DNA of 26,890 nt from IMG/VR virus record IMGVR_UViG_3300048036_000457, positions 1 through 26,890 of that record; one strand, written 5' to 3'. This DNA comes from a virus. Position numbers and translations under genes: made by a program. Numbering within the stretch: position 1 is the first letter of the stretch; each line of letters opens with the position of its first letter. This document shows, in pieces, positions 2,954 to 9,801 of this stretch. Under the pieces are notes generated by a model. It was not told where the DNA came from. It searched no databases and worked only from the letters and a program-made list of their open reading frames with translations.

Positions 2954-3610
2954 TCAGGGAAGATTAGGTTCTAAGGTTCTCATTAAGGAGTTTAAGTAGA
3001 AAGCGTCTACAAGATCATCAAAGGGTTTTGGGATAGATTTACCGAATTCAACGGTTTTAGCGAACTTCCAGAAATTTGTCTCCTCGAGAAATTTTTCACC
3101 TGTAGAATTATTTATAAAAACTTCCCATAAAGCAAGCTTATTCATATTACCTTTACCCGCATGTTTTTTAATTGTTGAAGGAGCAATTGTTAAAATGTCT
3201 TCGGGTTTAAAGTATTTGAGAAGTTTAATTTTAAGAATAGATGCAGCTGCTGCCATATCAATAATATTATTAGTACCAGCAGAACTACCATAAGATACCC
3301 CTTCAAATGCTATCTTAAAAGAGTCTTCTTTATCTATATGTTTTGTAATTAGTTCGATAATATCATTTGACATAATATCATATCGCTTAATTTTTGCAAG
3401 CTCAACACTAGAATAATCAACATGCGTTTCCCAATCTGGTTGAAAGACAAGAGTAACACCTTCTATTAAGGCTAAGTCTTCTTGCATTTTAATAGCCTTC
3501 TTTGTACCTGTCTTTTTTAAATAAGAAATAAAATAATATTGTTTTGTATTGCTATTAAAAACACAAATACCTGGAGAATTTAAAGAAAAATCAATTGTGA
3601 TAAAATTCAT
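2954..3610 (-). CDS. RuvC-like (RNase H fold) Holliday junction resolvase
   Basis: A 218-aa protein with the acidic residues of the RuvC/RNase H fold in the expected order. These are Asp7 in the first strand (FITIDFS), Glu103 in AFEGVSYGS, and Asp198/Asp199 with Asp202 in a final helix (KPFDDLVDAF). A basic segment with IAPSTIKKHAGKGNMNK (142-158) matches the usual RuvC pattern before the last acidic pair. Such enzymes cut branched DNA. In a phage this would resolve recombination or replication branches before packaging; T4 itself uses the unrelated endonuclease VII (gp49). I chose the ATG at 3608-3610 because the first strand then begins at residue 3 and only one base separates it from the previous stop. 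An upstream ATG at 3655 would overlap the previous gene by 44 nt. It is the last gene of the late block. Confidence 0.75.
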   Translation of the reverse strand: MNFITIDFSLNSPGICVFNSNTKQYYFISYLKKTGTKKAIKMQEDLALIEGVTLVFQPDWETHVDYSSVELAKIKRYDIMSNDIIELITKHIDKEDSFKIAFEGVSYGSSAGTNNIIDMAAAASILKIKLLKYFKPEDILTIAPSTIKKHAGKGNMNKLALWEVFINNSTGEKFLEETNFWKFAKTVEFGKSIPKPFDDLVDAFYLNSLMRTLEPNLP

Positions 3611-3611
3611 A

Positions 3612-3980
3612 TTAAAAACCTTTACCCATTGAAGCCCCGATTGCAGTTCCAACAAGTCTTGAAGTTAATAAATCATATAGAATACCCTTTTGAACACCTA
3701 ATACCTTAGCTATCATTTTACCCATAGACTTTCCTAAAGCAAAACCAGTAAGACCTCCAATAATAGAACCAAATAAACCTTCATTTGTCATTTCGTTATT
3801 AAATCTATTAATATCTAGATTTCCATCCTCATTTCTATATTCATTTAAAAAAGAATCTACTGCTTGATCTACTTTTTCTTCTAATTCAGGAGTCCATTCT
3901 TGTTGAAGTCCTTCTGTTAAAAGCTGCATCTCTTTTTCAGTAACTCTGTTTTCTTCTAAATATTCTATAAATGTTTTCAT
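3612..3980 (-). CDS. Putative capsid-targeted internal protein with glycine zippers
   Basis: A 122-aa protein. The N-terminus MKTFIEYLEE matches position by position the pattern of the T4 internal-protein capsid-targeting sequence as I recall it (MKTYQEFIAE). An LTE/G site (residues 21-24) fits the Leu/Ile-X-Glu cleavage rule of the T4 prohead protease gp21; LEE at 8-10 and 33-35 are further candidates. A charged helical middle follows. The C-terminal half contains a perfect GxxxG ladder, Gly71, 75, 79, 83 and 87, and a second one, Gly111, 115 and 119, both in hydrophobic, lysine-dotted helices. Such glycine zippers pack membrane helices and pore-forming proteins. My inference is a protein packed in the head and delivered with DNA, or acting on membranes. 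It could instead be a holin-like or membrane-anchored protein. Context: between a tail-tube-like gene and the RuvC-like gene. Confidence 0.6.
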   Translation of the reverse strand: MKTFIEYLEENRVTEKEMQLLTEGLQQEWTPELEEKVDQAVDSFLNEYRNEDGNLDINRFNNEMTNEGLFGSIIGGLTGFALGKSMGKMIAKVLGVQKGILYDLLTSRLVGTAIGASMGKGF

Positions 3981-3994
3981 AAGTTATATATCTT

Positions 3995-4546
3995 TTAATC
4001 TACGTCAATTTTAATATGAAATTTGTTATAATAAAAATTTAAATCAAATGTATTAAATTCAGCAACGTTTTCTGCCATGTTTAAATTTAGTTCACTTATT
4101 TGATTTAAGATTGGCTTTTCAAATGTAATGTTAGCAAGTACTAAATCTTCAGCATCTAATATACCTAATTTTAAATCAGTAATATGTTTCTGTTTAGTAG
4201 TAGGCGCATAATAATATAACAAAATATCTGTCATCATCCAGTAGTTAATATAGCCATCCATTAATTGCATAGTTACGGTAAATTGTCTTTCAATTGTATT
4301 TTGAATAGGTACTTTTCCTCTAAAATAACGAACAGTTCCATCGTTATCTGCTTGACTCACAGGATCAAATGTAATTCCTGGTAAATTAATAGATTGAATT
4401 CCGTAATTAATAAAATCAATAGGGTCTTCGAATAAATTACCTGGAATTTTATTTAAATAAGGCTTATACTTATCTATAATATCTTGAGGTATAAATTTTC
4501 TAGGAAACCTAAAATCAAATGAATTATTTCTGCTATCTAAAATCAT
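3995..4546 (-). CDS. Tail-tube-like protein (gp19/gp54-type fold)
   Basis: A 183-aa protein with the layout of contractile-tail tube proteins and their baseplate paralogues. After a proline-rich N-terminus come an INLPGITFDP strand (about 54-63), a YFRGKVPIQNTIERQFTVTMQLMDG hairpin region (about 74-98), a helix NYWMMTDILLYY and a long C-terminal strand pair ending in FDLNFYYNKFHIKI. T4 gp19 shows the same order: a LPA/LPG strand, an RTFDDWTVTVMND-like strand, a helix, and closing strands. The product could be the tube subunit, the tube initiator gp54/gp48, or the terminator gp3; the sequence alone does not decide. Its start overlaps the stop of the upstream gene as ATGA, showing translational coupling. 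It would act in the tail tube or at its junction with the baseplate. Confidence 0.5.
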   Translation of the reverse strand: MILDSRNNSFDFRFPRKFIPQDIIDKYKPYLNKIPGNLFEDPIDFINYGIQSINLPGITFDPVSQADNDGTVRYFRGKVPIQNTIERQFTVTMQLMDGYINYWMMTDILLYYYAPTTKQKHITDLKLGILDAEDLVLANITFEKPILNQISELNLNMAENVAEFNTFDLNFYYNKFHIKIDVD

Positions 4547-6537: not shown

Positions 6538-7335
6538 TTATTTATCTCTTTTAAAATTAAACAATTTTGGTGTATATGTTAAAAACACTCCAACTTGTGG
6601 TCCATGATATACTAAATTGCCAGTAGTAAATGTTAAACCATAACCTACACCTAAGCCTAATCTAACCCTACTTTTATTTTCTTCTTTTGCTTTATTTATC
6701 TCATCTTCAATGAGGCTAATTCCTTCAATATTACTAAATGTTAAACCTGGATATTTTGTAGCAATACTAATTTTTTTAATTCCTTCAACTTCTTCGACAC
6801 TTGAGTATAATTTAATCCCTTGTTCATAACTAAAACTGTTTAATGCTCCGGTTAATTTATTATCTTTTTCAAATAAACTAATTTTACTATTCCATTTTCT
6901 CCAATTCCCATCTCCATAGTCAGTAGAATCATTAAAATATAAAACTGAATCGCTTTCAATAAATGCATAAACGGTATCAGTTTCTTTAATACTAATTTCA
7001 GCACTTAACAGTTGATTTACTTTTTTAAGTTTTTTAATATCCCCTAAAGCATCTTCGTATTTTGCATATAAATCATTTGCATTATTTTTTAGTTCTTCTT
7101 CTGTAAATTCATATCCACTTATTTCACTAACTAAATAATCATTTTTATTTTTATAATATTTAATACTATCTTGGCTTGCGACAATGTTTGCTTCGACTCT
7201 CTCTACTTTTTTCTCTAAACCACCGTTTATAGCTTTTATTTTAGCAGTTCTGTTACATTGATGCATTAACAAAAGAATAAGTACTAAAATAACCGATATA
7301 AAATGAATTGGTTTTATTTCTAAGCTTTTAAACAT
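6538..7335 (-). CDS. Membrane-anchored coiled-coil protein, candidate spanin
   Basis: A 265-aa protein. Residues 10-26 form one hydrophobic transmembrane segment behind a short basic N-terminus. Cys27 follows the segment, but MHQC is not a proper lipobox. Long charged helices with heptad-like spacing span about 36-115. The C-terminal 45 residues form a glycine-rich, amphipathic beta region (LGLGVGYGLTF...GPQVGVFLTYTPKLF) like outer-membrane strand proteins. One inner-membrane anchor, a periplasm-spanning coiled coil and an outer-membrane-seeking end is the architecture of a spanin, which fuses the two host membranes at lysis. I associate this layout with Rz-like proteins of Bacteroidota phages, from memory only. 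No endolysin or holin is recognisable next to it, and it sits among structural genes, so a tail-associated role is the main alternative. Confidence 0.5.
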   Translation of the reverse strand: MFKSLEIKPIHFISVILVLILLLMHQCNRTAKIKAINGGLEKKVERVEANIVASQDSIKYYKNKNDYLVSEISGYEFTEEELKNNANDLYAKYEDALGDIKKLKKVNQLLSAEISIKETDTVYAFIESDSVLYFNDSTDYGDGNWRKWNSKISLFEKDNKLTGALNSFSYEQGIKLYSSVEEVEGIKKISIATKYPGLTFSNIEGISLIEDEINKAKEENKSRVRLGLGVGYGLTFTTGNLVYHGPQVGVFLTYTPKLFNFKRDK

Positions 7336-7350
7336 TTAATTTTTTATTTT

Positions 7351-9801
7351 TTAAGTACCTTGAGACAATGTTATGTTTTTGTTGTTATAACCACTTGCAG
7401 TAAACGTAACAGTGAAGTCTCTCTTGTTTTGAACAGTATTAGTTTTAGCAACAATTTTATACCTATACCAAAGTCTGGTTCTATTATCAGAATTCCAAGT
7501 ATTATCCTGAGTATCATCATAACACACTGCGTTGTCAAAAGTTATCGCATTACTTGCGCTTGGTGCAATTGGCCATGGCGGAGTTTGTGAATCAAGAGTA
7601 TCGATATTTAAATTACAGTGAGGAGGTACGTTAACCCAAATAAAACTCATCCCATGATTCTCCGGTACTGTATAATTACCCGAAGTGTATGAGTTGGCAG
7701 CATTCGTTCTAAAATAACTTTGCTGATTACCTGCAGCCCAAGTTGACATTTTATCAAATCCATCATTTGTGGCACTAGGAAGATTTATATCTCCAGTATG
7801 TGCGCTTCTAACTTGAATATTTTCATTAAATGATGGAGCAGCATAAATGCTATTTATCTGATTTCTATTGGAGCTCGAAGATATACTAGTATATGAATTA
7901 AATTTACTTAACATATTAAACGAAAATTCCATACTAATAGATTGTGAAGGGCCCGGAGAATTTGTAGCATCCCATTGTCTTACAAAATCAGCAGGTACAA
8001 GTGGCACTTGAAACGCAGCAGTTTCTCCAGCAAAATCTCTTTTTACTGTTTTAAATAAATAAACAACGTTAGAGTTATTATATATTCTACCAAATATGTT
8101 ATATGAACCTACAGTTGCAGGTAAATAACCATTCTCTATATCTCTTCCATTAAAATAGTCATAACTGTATCCGCCCTGTGTTCTCTCTCCACTTGAACTA
8201 ACTGTACCAAACTGCATGTTGAATTGAGTTCCTATATTTATTGGAAATGTTACCACCGATCCACCATCATTCCTATAAGGAAATTTTAAAGGATTAAATC
8301 TAAAACACATTTGATTTTTTGCGAGATTTCCACTTAAACCATATGTTGCCCAAATAGGGTGCGTTCTAATTTTTAAAGAAGTATTAACAAAAACAGTACT
8401 TCCTATTTTAGAAACAGTAGTTTTTTCCATTTCAAATCCATTGCTGCTTCCGCTAGCGCTTCTTAGTTTATAAAAACTTTCCATTCCAGTCGTATATTGA
8501 GGATTAGCGTTTATTGCTGGAACACTTGTTGGATTAGATATATTAAGTCTAAGGGCATCCTCTAACGCGAAGTCACTATAATAATCAGATAATGTCTTTT
8601 CTTGAAGATTAGTACTTTGTGATTTTTCAGTATATAATCTAGTTGCAGCTTGTCCGTTAGATATTATACTTTCATCCACGTCTAATCCGTCTTTAAATCT
8701 TATACCATAACCTGTATCGAAGGCTGAACTATTTGCAACTTTACCTTCTTGATTTAATGAGTTTATATCTCCATTTATTGCAATTCCTTGAAATAAAACA
8801 TTATTACCGGAAGTAGTCAAATCCGACTCAATGTGTAATTTATTATGAGTATTATTTGAATTTGTTCCAGCTATTCTAATTAATAAATGTTCTTCTGCCA
8901 CTATTAAATGTTCTCCTCCTTGCTGAGATGAATTTAAAAGAGAATATTGTGTAGTGTTATTAGCACTAGACTCAAGAACAGATGTTGCAGTTATATCGAT
9001 TCTGTCAGAAGAATTTAAAGTCAAATCAGATGCTGCTGATAATGTAACAGAATCAGATGCTTGTAGATTAAACGTTTCTGTTAAAACCTCTGTCTGAGCG
9101 CCACTATCTATAATAAGATTATTGCTATTTTTAATTTTTGAATTGTCTCCATCTAATTCTATATAATTAGACTGTAATTTAATATCATTTGGAATTGAAA
9201 TTAATAAATTTGTTTTTTCACCTAATGCAGCGGCTAATGCACTTAAAGTAAATGTAGTCCCATTATTATTACCTGAAGTATAAGATGTCGCCATCTTAAA
9301 TTCCTTTGGATTACCACTCTCGTTATTTGCAAATATAATTTGAGCAGTTACATCGTTATTAATAACAGGTGGATTTATTAAATTTAATAAACCATTTGGA
9401 GTACCTGTTAGTGTATTAGGTTCTAATGGGTCTGCATATGTATTTTGACCTAAAATTAATCTACTTCTTCTACCTTCTGGTATATTGTTTGGATCAGTGT
9501 TAGGTTCTGGATCAACGTCGTATGGTCTAAGTATTCTTACATCATATCCATTAATTCCTATGACGTCACTGTCCCATAAACTAGATGAAGCTCCTGCATC
9601 ACCTTTAGGTCCTACTTCTCCTTTGCTCCCTTTATCACCACCTGTTCCTTTTTGACCAACTGGTCCTACTATGCCTGGATTTCCTTTAAGGCCAGTTGCA
9701 CCACCGCCGTTAGCTAAAACTTGATCAAAGTTATAATTTATTTTATCAACTTTAATATTTTCCGCATCAGCATCGAATAATTCCTTTATATTAATTGCCA
9801 T
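7351..9801 (-). CDS. Tail fibre-like protein with collagen-type repeats (816 aa)
   Basis: The N-terminus KVDKINYNFDQVL (18-30) resembles the short IN-x-NF helix that begins many phage tail fibre and baseplate-adaptor proteins; the 178-aa protein encoded at 20200-20736 has a similar one (LNDNFTSL). Eleven uninterrupted Gly-X-Y triplets follow at residues 37-70, which should form a collagen-like triple helix and so make the protein a trimer. The rest (about 75-816) is Asn/Ser/Thr-rich beta structure of the kind found in receptor-binding fibres. The C-terminal 100 residues contain several Trp and a final strand set (RLWYRYKIVAKTNTVQNKR, then TVTFTASGYNNKNITLS). I infer a trimeric fibre or fibre-adaptor; no enzymatic motif is visible. 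Its leader shares an exact 15-base string with the leader of the 912-aa baseplate gene. Confidence 0.7.
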   Translation of the reverse strand: MAINIKELFDADAENIKVDKINYNFDQVLANGGGATGLKGNPGIVGPVGQKGTGGDKGSKGEVGPKGDAGASSSLWDSDVIGINGYDVRILRPYDVDPEPNTDPNNIPEGRRSRLILGQNTYADPLEPNTLTGTPNGLLNLINPPVINNDVTAQIIFANNESGNPKEFKMATSYTSGNNNGTTFTLSALAAALGEKTNLLISIPNDIKLQSNYIELDGDNSKIKNSNNLIIDSGAQTEVLTETFNLQASDSVTLSAASDLTLNSSDRIDITATSVLESSANNTTQYSLLNSSQQGGEHLIVAEEHLLIRIAGTNSNNTHNKLHIESDLTTSGNNVLFQGIAINGDINSLNQEGKVANSSAFDTGYGIRFKDGLDVDESIISNGQAATRLYTEKSQSTNLQEKTLSDYYSDFALEDALRLNISNPTSVPAINANPQYTTGMESFYKLRSASGSSNGFEMEKTTVSKIGSTVFVNTSLKIRTHPIWATYGLSGNLAKNQMCFRFNPLKFPYRNDGGSVVTFPINIGTQFNMQFGTVSSSGERTQGGYSYDYFNGRDIENGYLPATVGSYNIFGRIYNNSNVVYLFKTVKRDFAGETAAFQVPLVPADFVRQWDATNSPGPSQSISMEFSFNMLSKFNSYTSISSSSNRNQINSIYAAPSFNENIQVRSAHTGDINLPSATNDGFDKMSTWAAGNQQSYFRTNAANSYTSGNYTVPENHGMSFIWVNVPPHCNLNIDTLDSQTPPWPIAPSASNAITFDNAVCYDDTQDNTWNSDNRTRLWYRYKIVAKTNTVQNKRDFTVTFTASGYNNKNITLSQGT
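9592..9693 (-). repeat. Collagen-like Gly-X-Y repeat region
   Basis: The codons for residues 37-70 of the fibre protein spell eleven consecutive Gly-X-Y triplets, with Pro and Lys common in X and Y (for example GEVGPKGDAG at the end). Phage collagen-like segments form stable trimers without hydroxyproline and are found in fibres. The repeat is short and close to the N-terminus, suggesting a trimer nucleation stalk at the attachment end. Confidence 0.9.

Follow-up and report, generated by a model that had tools for sequence, protein, structure and literature searches.

A conserved phage glycine-zipper protein with a T4-like capsid-targeting start is a candidate internal head protein

The internal proteins IPI, IPII and IPIII of phage T4 begin with a capsid-targeting tag of the form MKT[FY]xE[FY][IL]xE, which ends in an IxE or LxE cut site. 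To our knowledge, the exact core partner of this tag has not been pinned down, the T4 internal proteins are not known as glycine-zipper proteins, and no cleaved tag is known on the T7 protein gp14. The crossing of the inner membrane by myovirus DNA and packed proteins is still poorly understood. Mutational work on T4 IPIII assigns targeting mainly to residues 4 and 7, and processing to residues 8 and 10 (PMC9026906). The pore protein gp14 of T7, which is small and packed in the head, localises to the outer membrane and mostly has four to five predicted transmembrane (TM) helices (PMC8954989). In Salmonella phage SPN3US, the essential gp47, a candidate ejection protein, has a predicted TM helix and a targeting-type propeptide that is cleaved off (PMC5694885). 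Tde1, an Agrobacterium T6SS effector with an N-terminus similar to phage tape measure proteins, contains GxxxG runs that make the inner membrane of E. coli permeable, an activity lost on G-to-L changes (PMC10240207).

The window (the whole stretch of DNA analysed here, 26,890 nucleotides) is a 26.9 kb virus record that carries T4-type baseplate genes, a tail-tube-fold gene and the gene of a 122-aa glycine-zipper protein (Table 1), and that further encodes a RuvC-like resolvase, a single-strand DNA-binding protein and a primase. It is a fragment without protease, portal and major head genes, and those discussed below come from relatives, among them G001 (205 kb). The glycine-zipper protein starts with MKTFIEYLEE, has an L-T-E/G site at residues 21-24 (the slash marks the candidate cut) and contains glycine ladders at residues 71/75/79/83/87 and 111/115/119; the first-pass annotation had described the same reading frame, decamer, site and ladders, and each was recovered exactly. 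F4 and Y7 fall on the targeting positions of T4 IPIII, and L8 and E10 on its processing positions.

Table 1. Coordinates of the glycine-zipper gene, its parts, its neighbours and the protease genes of relatives (window positions unless another sequence is named)
Feature	Position	Strand	Basis or remark
Glycine-zipper internal-head-protein candidate, 122 aa	3612..3980	-	ORF and family searches
Capsid-targeting-like decamer MKTFIEYLEE, residues 1-10	3951..3980	-	T4 IPIII comparison, alignment
L21-T22-E23/G24, candidate prohead-protease cut	3909..3920	-	[LIV]xE/[GSNQ] at this place in 75/75 distinct sequences
Acidic middle region, residues 24-67, net charge -9 (family mean -11)	3780..3911	-	
N66-E67/G68, nearly invariant, possible second cut bordering the conserved hairpin	3777..3785	-	
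Basic glycine-rich helical hairpin (predicted), residues 68-122, net charge +5	3615..3779	-	
First GxxxG ladder, Gly71/75/79/83/87	3720..3770	-	alignment
LLTSRLV block, residues 104-110	3651..3671	-	L105-V110 invariant in IMG/VR alignment
Second GxxxG ladder, Gly111/115/119	3624..3650	-	alignment
Upstream neighbour, tail-tube fold	3995..4546	-	closest structures are T4 and Klebsiella phage baseplate/tail-tube chains, Z 12-13
Downstream neighbour, RuvC-like Holliday junction resolvase	2954..3610	-	starts a few bases past the glycine-zipper stop
Prohead protease with scaffold-like repeat region	L055:9645-11543 (= G001 85645-87543); G009 93458-95458; G008 76340-77698		

Like T4, the relative G001 encodes a gp21-type protease together with a T4-type portal and major head protein. 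Unlike the fast-varying internal proteins of T4, the glycine-zipper gene is conserved and syntenic, and no similarity to them was seen beyond the tag; in a protein search of a phage collection, no T4-like record appeared in the organism counts, the T4 internal proteins sharing mainly the tag even among themselves. With T7 gp14 and P22 gp7 the window protein would share small size, packing in the head and membrane action on ejection, a likeness in manner of working only. SPN3US gp47 offers a cleaved N-terminal propeptide, with an inferred targeting role, together with a predicted membrane helix, but it is much larger, its propeptide is long, and no glycine ladder has been described in it. Tde1 has a GxxxG run in common with the window protein, and uses it during contractile injection to cross the inner membrane of a target cell (PMC10240207); its zipper is, however, attached to a DNase and does not belong to a phage head protein, and we claim no homology. 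Each half of the window protein has precedent among the T4 internal proteins, T7 gp14, SPN3US gp47 and glycine-zipper effectors. The first-pass statement that no described protein has both features is not quite right, since SPN3US gp47 and T7 gp14 come near. A limited open-access search found no paper on the tag in this clade, on its scaffold copies or on a tagged glycine-zipper protein, and virion proteomics for the clade did not turn up either.

A protein search returned 45 IMG/VR relatives at 60-100% identity, and a profile search extended the set to at least 280 IMG/VR loci. The 462 kb uncultured huge phage LR756500 encodes a full-length match (44% identity, E 5e-25), and in Prevotella Lak phages the match is confined to the C-terminal half (E 4e-6; hhalign probability 97.8 over residues 63-121). 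Judged by these similarities, the glycine-zipper protein family is real and widespread. A scan of a genome-contig collection found no relative, and we therefore assign no host; PHROGs offered no usable family. A weak match to a Rhizobium phage baseplate protein (E 0.04) and Vibrio matches (E about 1) were set aside as chance, and YppG and other Pfam matches to residues 24-62 were discarded as chance similarity of acidic helices.

Conservation is concentrated in the features named above. Across 75 distinct homologues, twelve glycine columns (68, 71, 75, 76, 79, 83, 87, 95, 99, 111, 115 and 119) are each occupied in 75/75, and within the decamer the counts are 75/75 for F4, 71/75 for an aromatic residue at position 7, 75/75 for an aliphatic residue at position 8 and 64/75 for E10. 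E23 is likewise present in 75/75, always with L, I or V at P3 and with G, S, N or Q at P1', and W29 is invariant too, with positions such as 12, 16 and 19 highly variable. Because the twelve glycine columns, F4 and E23 never vary, the decamer and the ladder are co-conserved in the IMG/VR clade; the first-pass annotation had proposed looking for exactly this pairing among homologues, and the outcome that it named as refuting, homologues with neither the decamer nor the glycine spacing, did not occur. On the window sequence alone, with the composition of residues 61-122 taken into account, P for a chance five-glycine ladder is about 0.008; the strong evidence is therefore the conservation across the family, rather than the single sequence.

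Farther afield, LR756500 retains all ladder glycines and carries its tag displaced, as KTFNSFVNE/N at residues 15-23. The Lak homologues have the hairpin, an LFE/G near the start and part of the ladder only, without the decamer; the LLTSRLV block is retained in them as SRLV or SKLV. The hairpin of the window protein is identical to that of LR756500 at 39/55 positions (71%) over residues 66-120, and adjacent proteins mostly show 27-50% identity, so that nothing else in the neighbourhood is as constrained as the hairpin. The gene order is also fixed: among loci with room to show the neighbour in question, the tail-tube-fold gene lies upstream in 93/93 and the RuvC gene downstream in 91/91.

The tag is not confined to this protein. 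We counted the motif [FY]x[EQDNSTK][FYW][ILV]xE starting within the first 20 residues, with the expected number taken from the motif rate in the remainder of the same proteins. Motif-bearing proteins numbered 13 against 1.2 expected in G001 (p 7e-10), 9 against 0.65 in G007, 5 against 0.52 in G008, 8 against 0.64 in G009 and 20 against 1.4 in LR756500 (p 1e-16); the pattern was phrased after reading G001 and already fixed for the other four, and relatedness among the five genomes means that the tests are not fully independent. In T4, used as a control, the matches were IPII, IPIII and one chance match, an ORF covering gp61.4. Typical tagged starts are MKTYEEFINE, MKNIKLFEEFINE and MKYILEYEEFLLE, compared with MKTYQEFIAE in both IPII and IPIII. 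A strict T4-like start proved too narrow a test, with MKTYEEFINE the one clear further case in G001 besides the glycine-zipper protein; the informative version lets the motif start a few residues further in. Each genome of this uncultured phage group, which extends to the huge phages, has 5-20 tagged proteins that are candidates for injection.

Two groups of tagged genes are recorded here as separate observations. In G007, eight clustered genes (23723-34006; L136) encode products starting with the same targeting-like motif (MKHIKLYEQFVSE, MKPVKLFESFINE and similar), a candidate cassette of head-packed cargo. In G001, three tagged proteins (54283-56241, 63327-63782 and 176438-176848) have weak Pfam peptidase matches (S41, C25 and zincin MPTase-PolyVal), all below cut-off, and could possibly be injected proteases.

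The head genes of the relatives offer a possible explanation for how the tag is read. G001 encodes a gp21-like protease (phrog_207), a portal and a gp23-like major head protein, and between portal and protease lies the gene of a 114-aa protein that carries the motif and a gp67-like acidic tail, in the place of T4 gp67/gp68. Its portal-adjoining relatives in G008 and G009 also bear the motif (113-123 aa across the three genomes). The protease gene itself runs into a long C-terminal region of tandem motif repeats, mostly at 14-residue spacing, such as YVKYVAE, YSEYLAE, YAEHIAE, YTEHIAE and YSNYIAE. Motif copies in this region number seven in G001, five in G008 and five in G009 (about 0.1 in shuffled sequence), and LR756500 has three. 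The region would represent the scaffold, and the tag may dock by mimicking it; the repetition of the tag within the scaffold supplies a direct hypothesis for tag docking. The window protein is very probably head-targeted, as first proposed from its start alone: the genome-wide enrichment, the gp67-like carrier, the scaffold repeats and the T4 control all point this way.

Trimming by the prohead protease, also proposed at first pass, is backed by the conserved [LIV]xE site and by the encoded gp21-type protease. All IMG/VR family sequences (75/75) have L/I/V-x-E/G/S/N/Q at residues 21-24, with variable residues before it, and the protease probably cuts at E23. E10, present in 64/75, makes a second LxE site, as in T4. 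The E67-G68 junction reads I-N-E/G in LR756500 and V-D-E/G in the Lak phages, whose homology begins there, and could be a further cut that frees the hairpin alone, although in most members P3 before this junction is Thr, against the T4 rule.

What the hairpin does is less evident from its sequence. The best 19-residue Kyte-Doolittle mean is 1.11 in the window protein and 1.1-1.6 in the family, against a usual TM threshold of 1.6, because K84, K88, K92 and R108 lie within the helices; the search for two TM-grade hydrophobic helices by hydropathy found none in the window protein. AlphaFold2, run on a 53-sequence family alignment, gave helices at low confidence only (pLDDT 59), too low for a fold search; a PDB profile search returned no match. 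Pfam Gly-zipper_Omp (PF13488) weakly matches 13/18 members (best E 6e-5), and the window protein scores 17.3 bits against it, under the curated cut-off of 25; GxxxG spacing is shared with PF13488 and PF05433, both under their curated cut-offs here, and we do not claim membership. The earlier proposal of a membrane- or pore-acting protein stays conjectural: neither a confident TM segment nor a confident fold emerged, and the Pfam glycine-zipper scores are sub-threshold. Membrane action of the hairpin after ejection is plausible but somewhat less likely than not, and could be of a peripheral or amphipathic kind. The GxxxG run of Tde1 is the closest demonstrated precedent that we found for crossing of a bacterial inner membrane by such a sequence.

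Seen in the sequence are the tag, its co-conservation with the hairpin, its use across genomes, the tag-like repeats in the scaffold and the protease gene; from these we infer that the window protein is probably packed, cut and ejected, and that it may be active at a membrane. In the reading that we tentatively favour, it is a T4-type internal head protein that is trimmed and ejected and that eases entry at the host membrane. Its N-terminal decamer would dock on the scaffold core during prohead assembly, and the gp21-like phage protease would cut after E23, with E10 or E67 as a possible further site. Either the rest of the protein or the basic glycine-zipper hairpin alone would enter the head with the DNA and, on ejection, the host cell; there, several copies could assemble via their glycine faces at a membrane and ease the passage of DNA or other packed proteins. 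Being small and conserved, the glycine-zipper protein is a testable candidate for the membrane step. Against this reading stand the sub-threshold hydropathy, the Lys and Arg residues inside the helices and the poor AlphaFold2 model, as well as the Lak homologues with a partial ladder and no decamer. The gene also sits amid tail genes, not head genes, and a likely tape measure protein (G001 105547-108720, a guess from length and hydrophobic segments alone) could cross the membrane unaided.

The strongest rival reading has the hairpin inserted in the producing cell's inner membrane, with the tag gripping the scaffold core; head assembly would start at the membrane, and cutting between tag and hairpin would free the finished prohead, resembling the membrane-associated head initiation of T4 by gp40 and a membrane-bound portal ring. 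T4 proheads do begin at the inner membrane and leave it on proteolytic maturation (PMC9026906; PMC5694885), the cut sites of the window protein sit between tag and hairpin, and its gene, highly conserved and syntenic, belongs to the core set, in contrast to the variable T4 internal proteins. We nevertheless consider such a tether unlikely: the tag is directed at the core, within the shell, and the membrane lies outside, so that bridging would be possible only at the portal vertex, and hydropathy is weak.

The glycine faces could instead pack helices in a soluble bundle, in a core- or DNA-associated head protein that fills or organises the core without membrane action, like T4 IPIII or gp68. 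A basic mature hairpin (+5), as in the basic T4 internal proteins, hydropathy under the TM threshold and near-absolute conservation, which fits a structural role, are all consistent with this. Regular glycine ladders are, however, more typical of membrane-associated helices, and together with the 13/18 Gly-zipper_Omp matches they render a soluble role similarly unlikely.

An injected protein for host takeover or superinfection exclusion, like T4 IPI or Alt, would bear the same kind of tag, and T4 alt lies close to gp54 much as the present gene follows a tail-tube-fold gene. T4 internal proteins are, however, poorly conserved (PMC9026906), in contrast to the twelve invariant glycines, fixed synteny and Lak reach seen here, and we regard this reading as improbable. 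For a core gene so conserved and syntenic, a general step in entry or assembly is likelier than host-specific takeover, and the superinfection block suggested at first pass is unsupported and fits such a gene poorly. A tail-tip, baseplate or holin-like lysis membrane protein, with the decamer an ordinary helix start, would suit a gene that immediately adjoins the tail-tube-fold gene downstream of baseplate genes, but is most improbable in view of the genome-wide motif enrichment, the scaffold and gp67-like anchors and the conserved protease-type sites.

The entry reading could be extended to the clade as a whole. The tag, matching the 14-residue repeats of the phages' own scaffold, would load many proteins into the head, and the zipper protein, as the conserved member of this cargo, would lose its acidic half to the protease and then form an inner-membrane opening for DNA and the other cargo. 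We consider this wider scheme speculative and, taken whole, rather unlikely.

Several neighbouring genes merit description in their own right. In LR756500, an extra gene (L048:10416-11267) lies between the glycine-zipper and RuvC genes, and its 283-aa product has a Gly/Ala-rich hydrophobic stretch (VAIGTGVVAGAGLGVAAL). Adjoining the Lak homologues on the opposite strand are genes for proteins of 416-417 aa with long hydrophobic Gly-rich segments (L049:8476-9726 and L050:8485-9738), possibly a second membrane-acting virion protein. In the window, a tail-fibre-like protein (7351-9801, minus strand) shows collagen-like G-x-x over a short stretch close to its start (GLKGNPGIVGPVGQKGTGGDKGSKGEVGPKGDAG), and a 265-aa protein encoded among the tail genes (6538-7335, minus strand) combines an N-terminal hydrophobic helix with a coiled coil and weakly matches Rz-like spanins.
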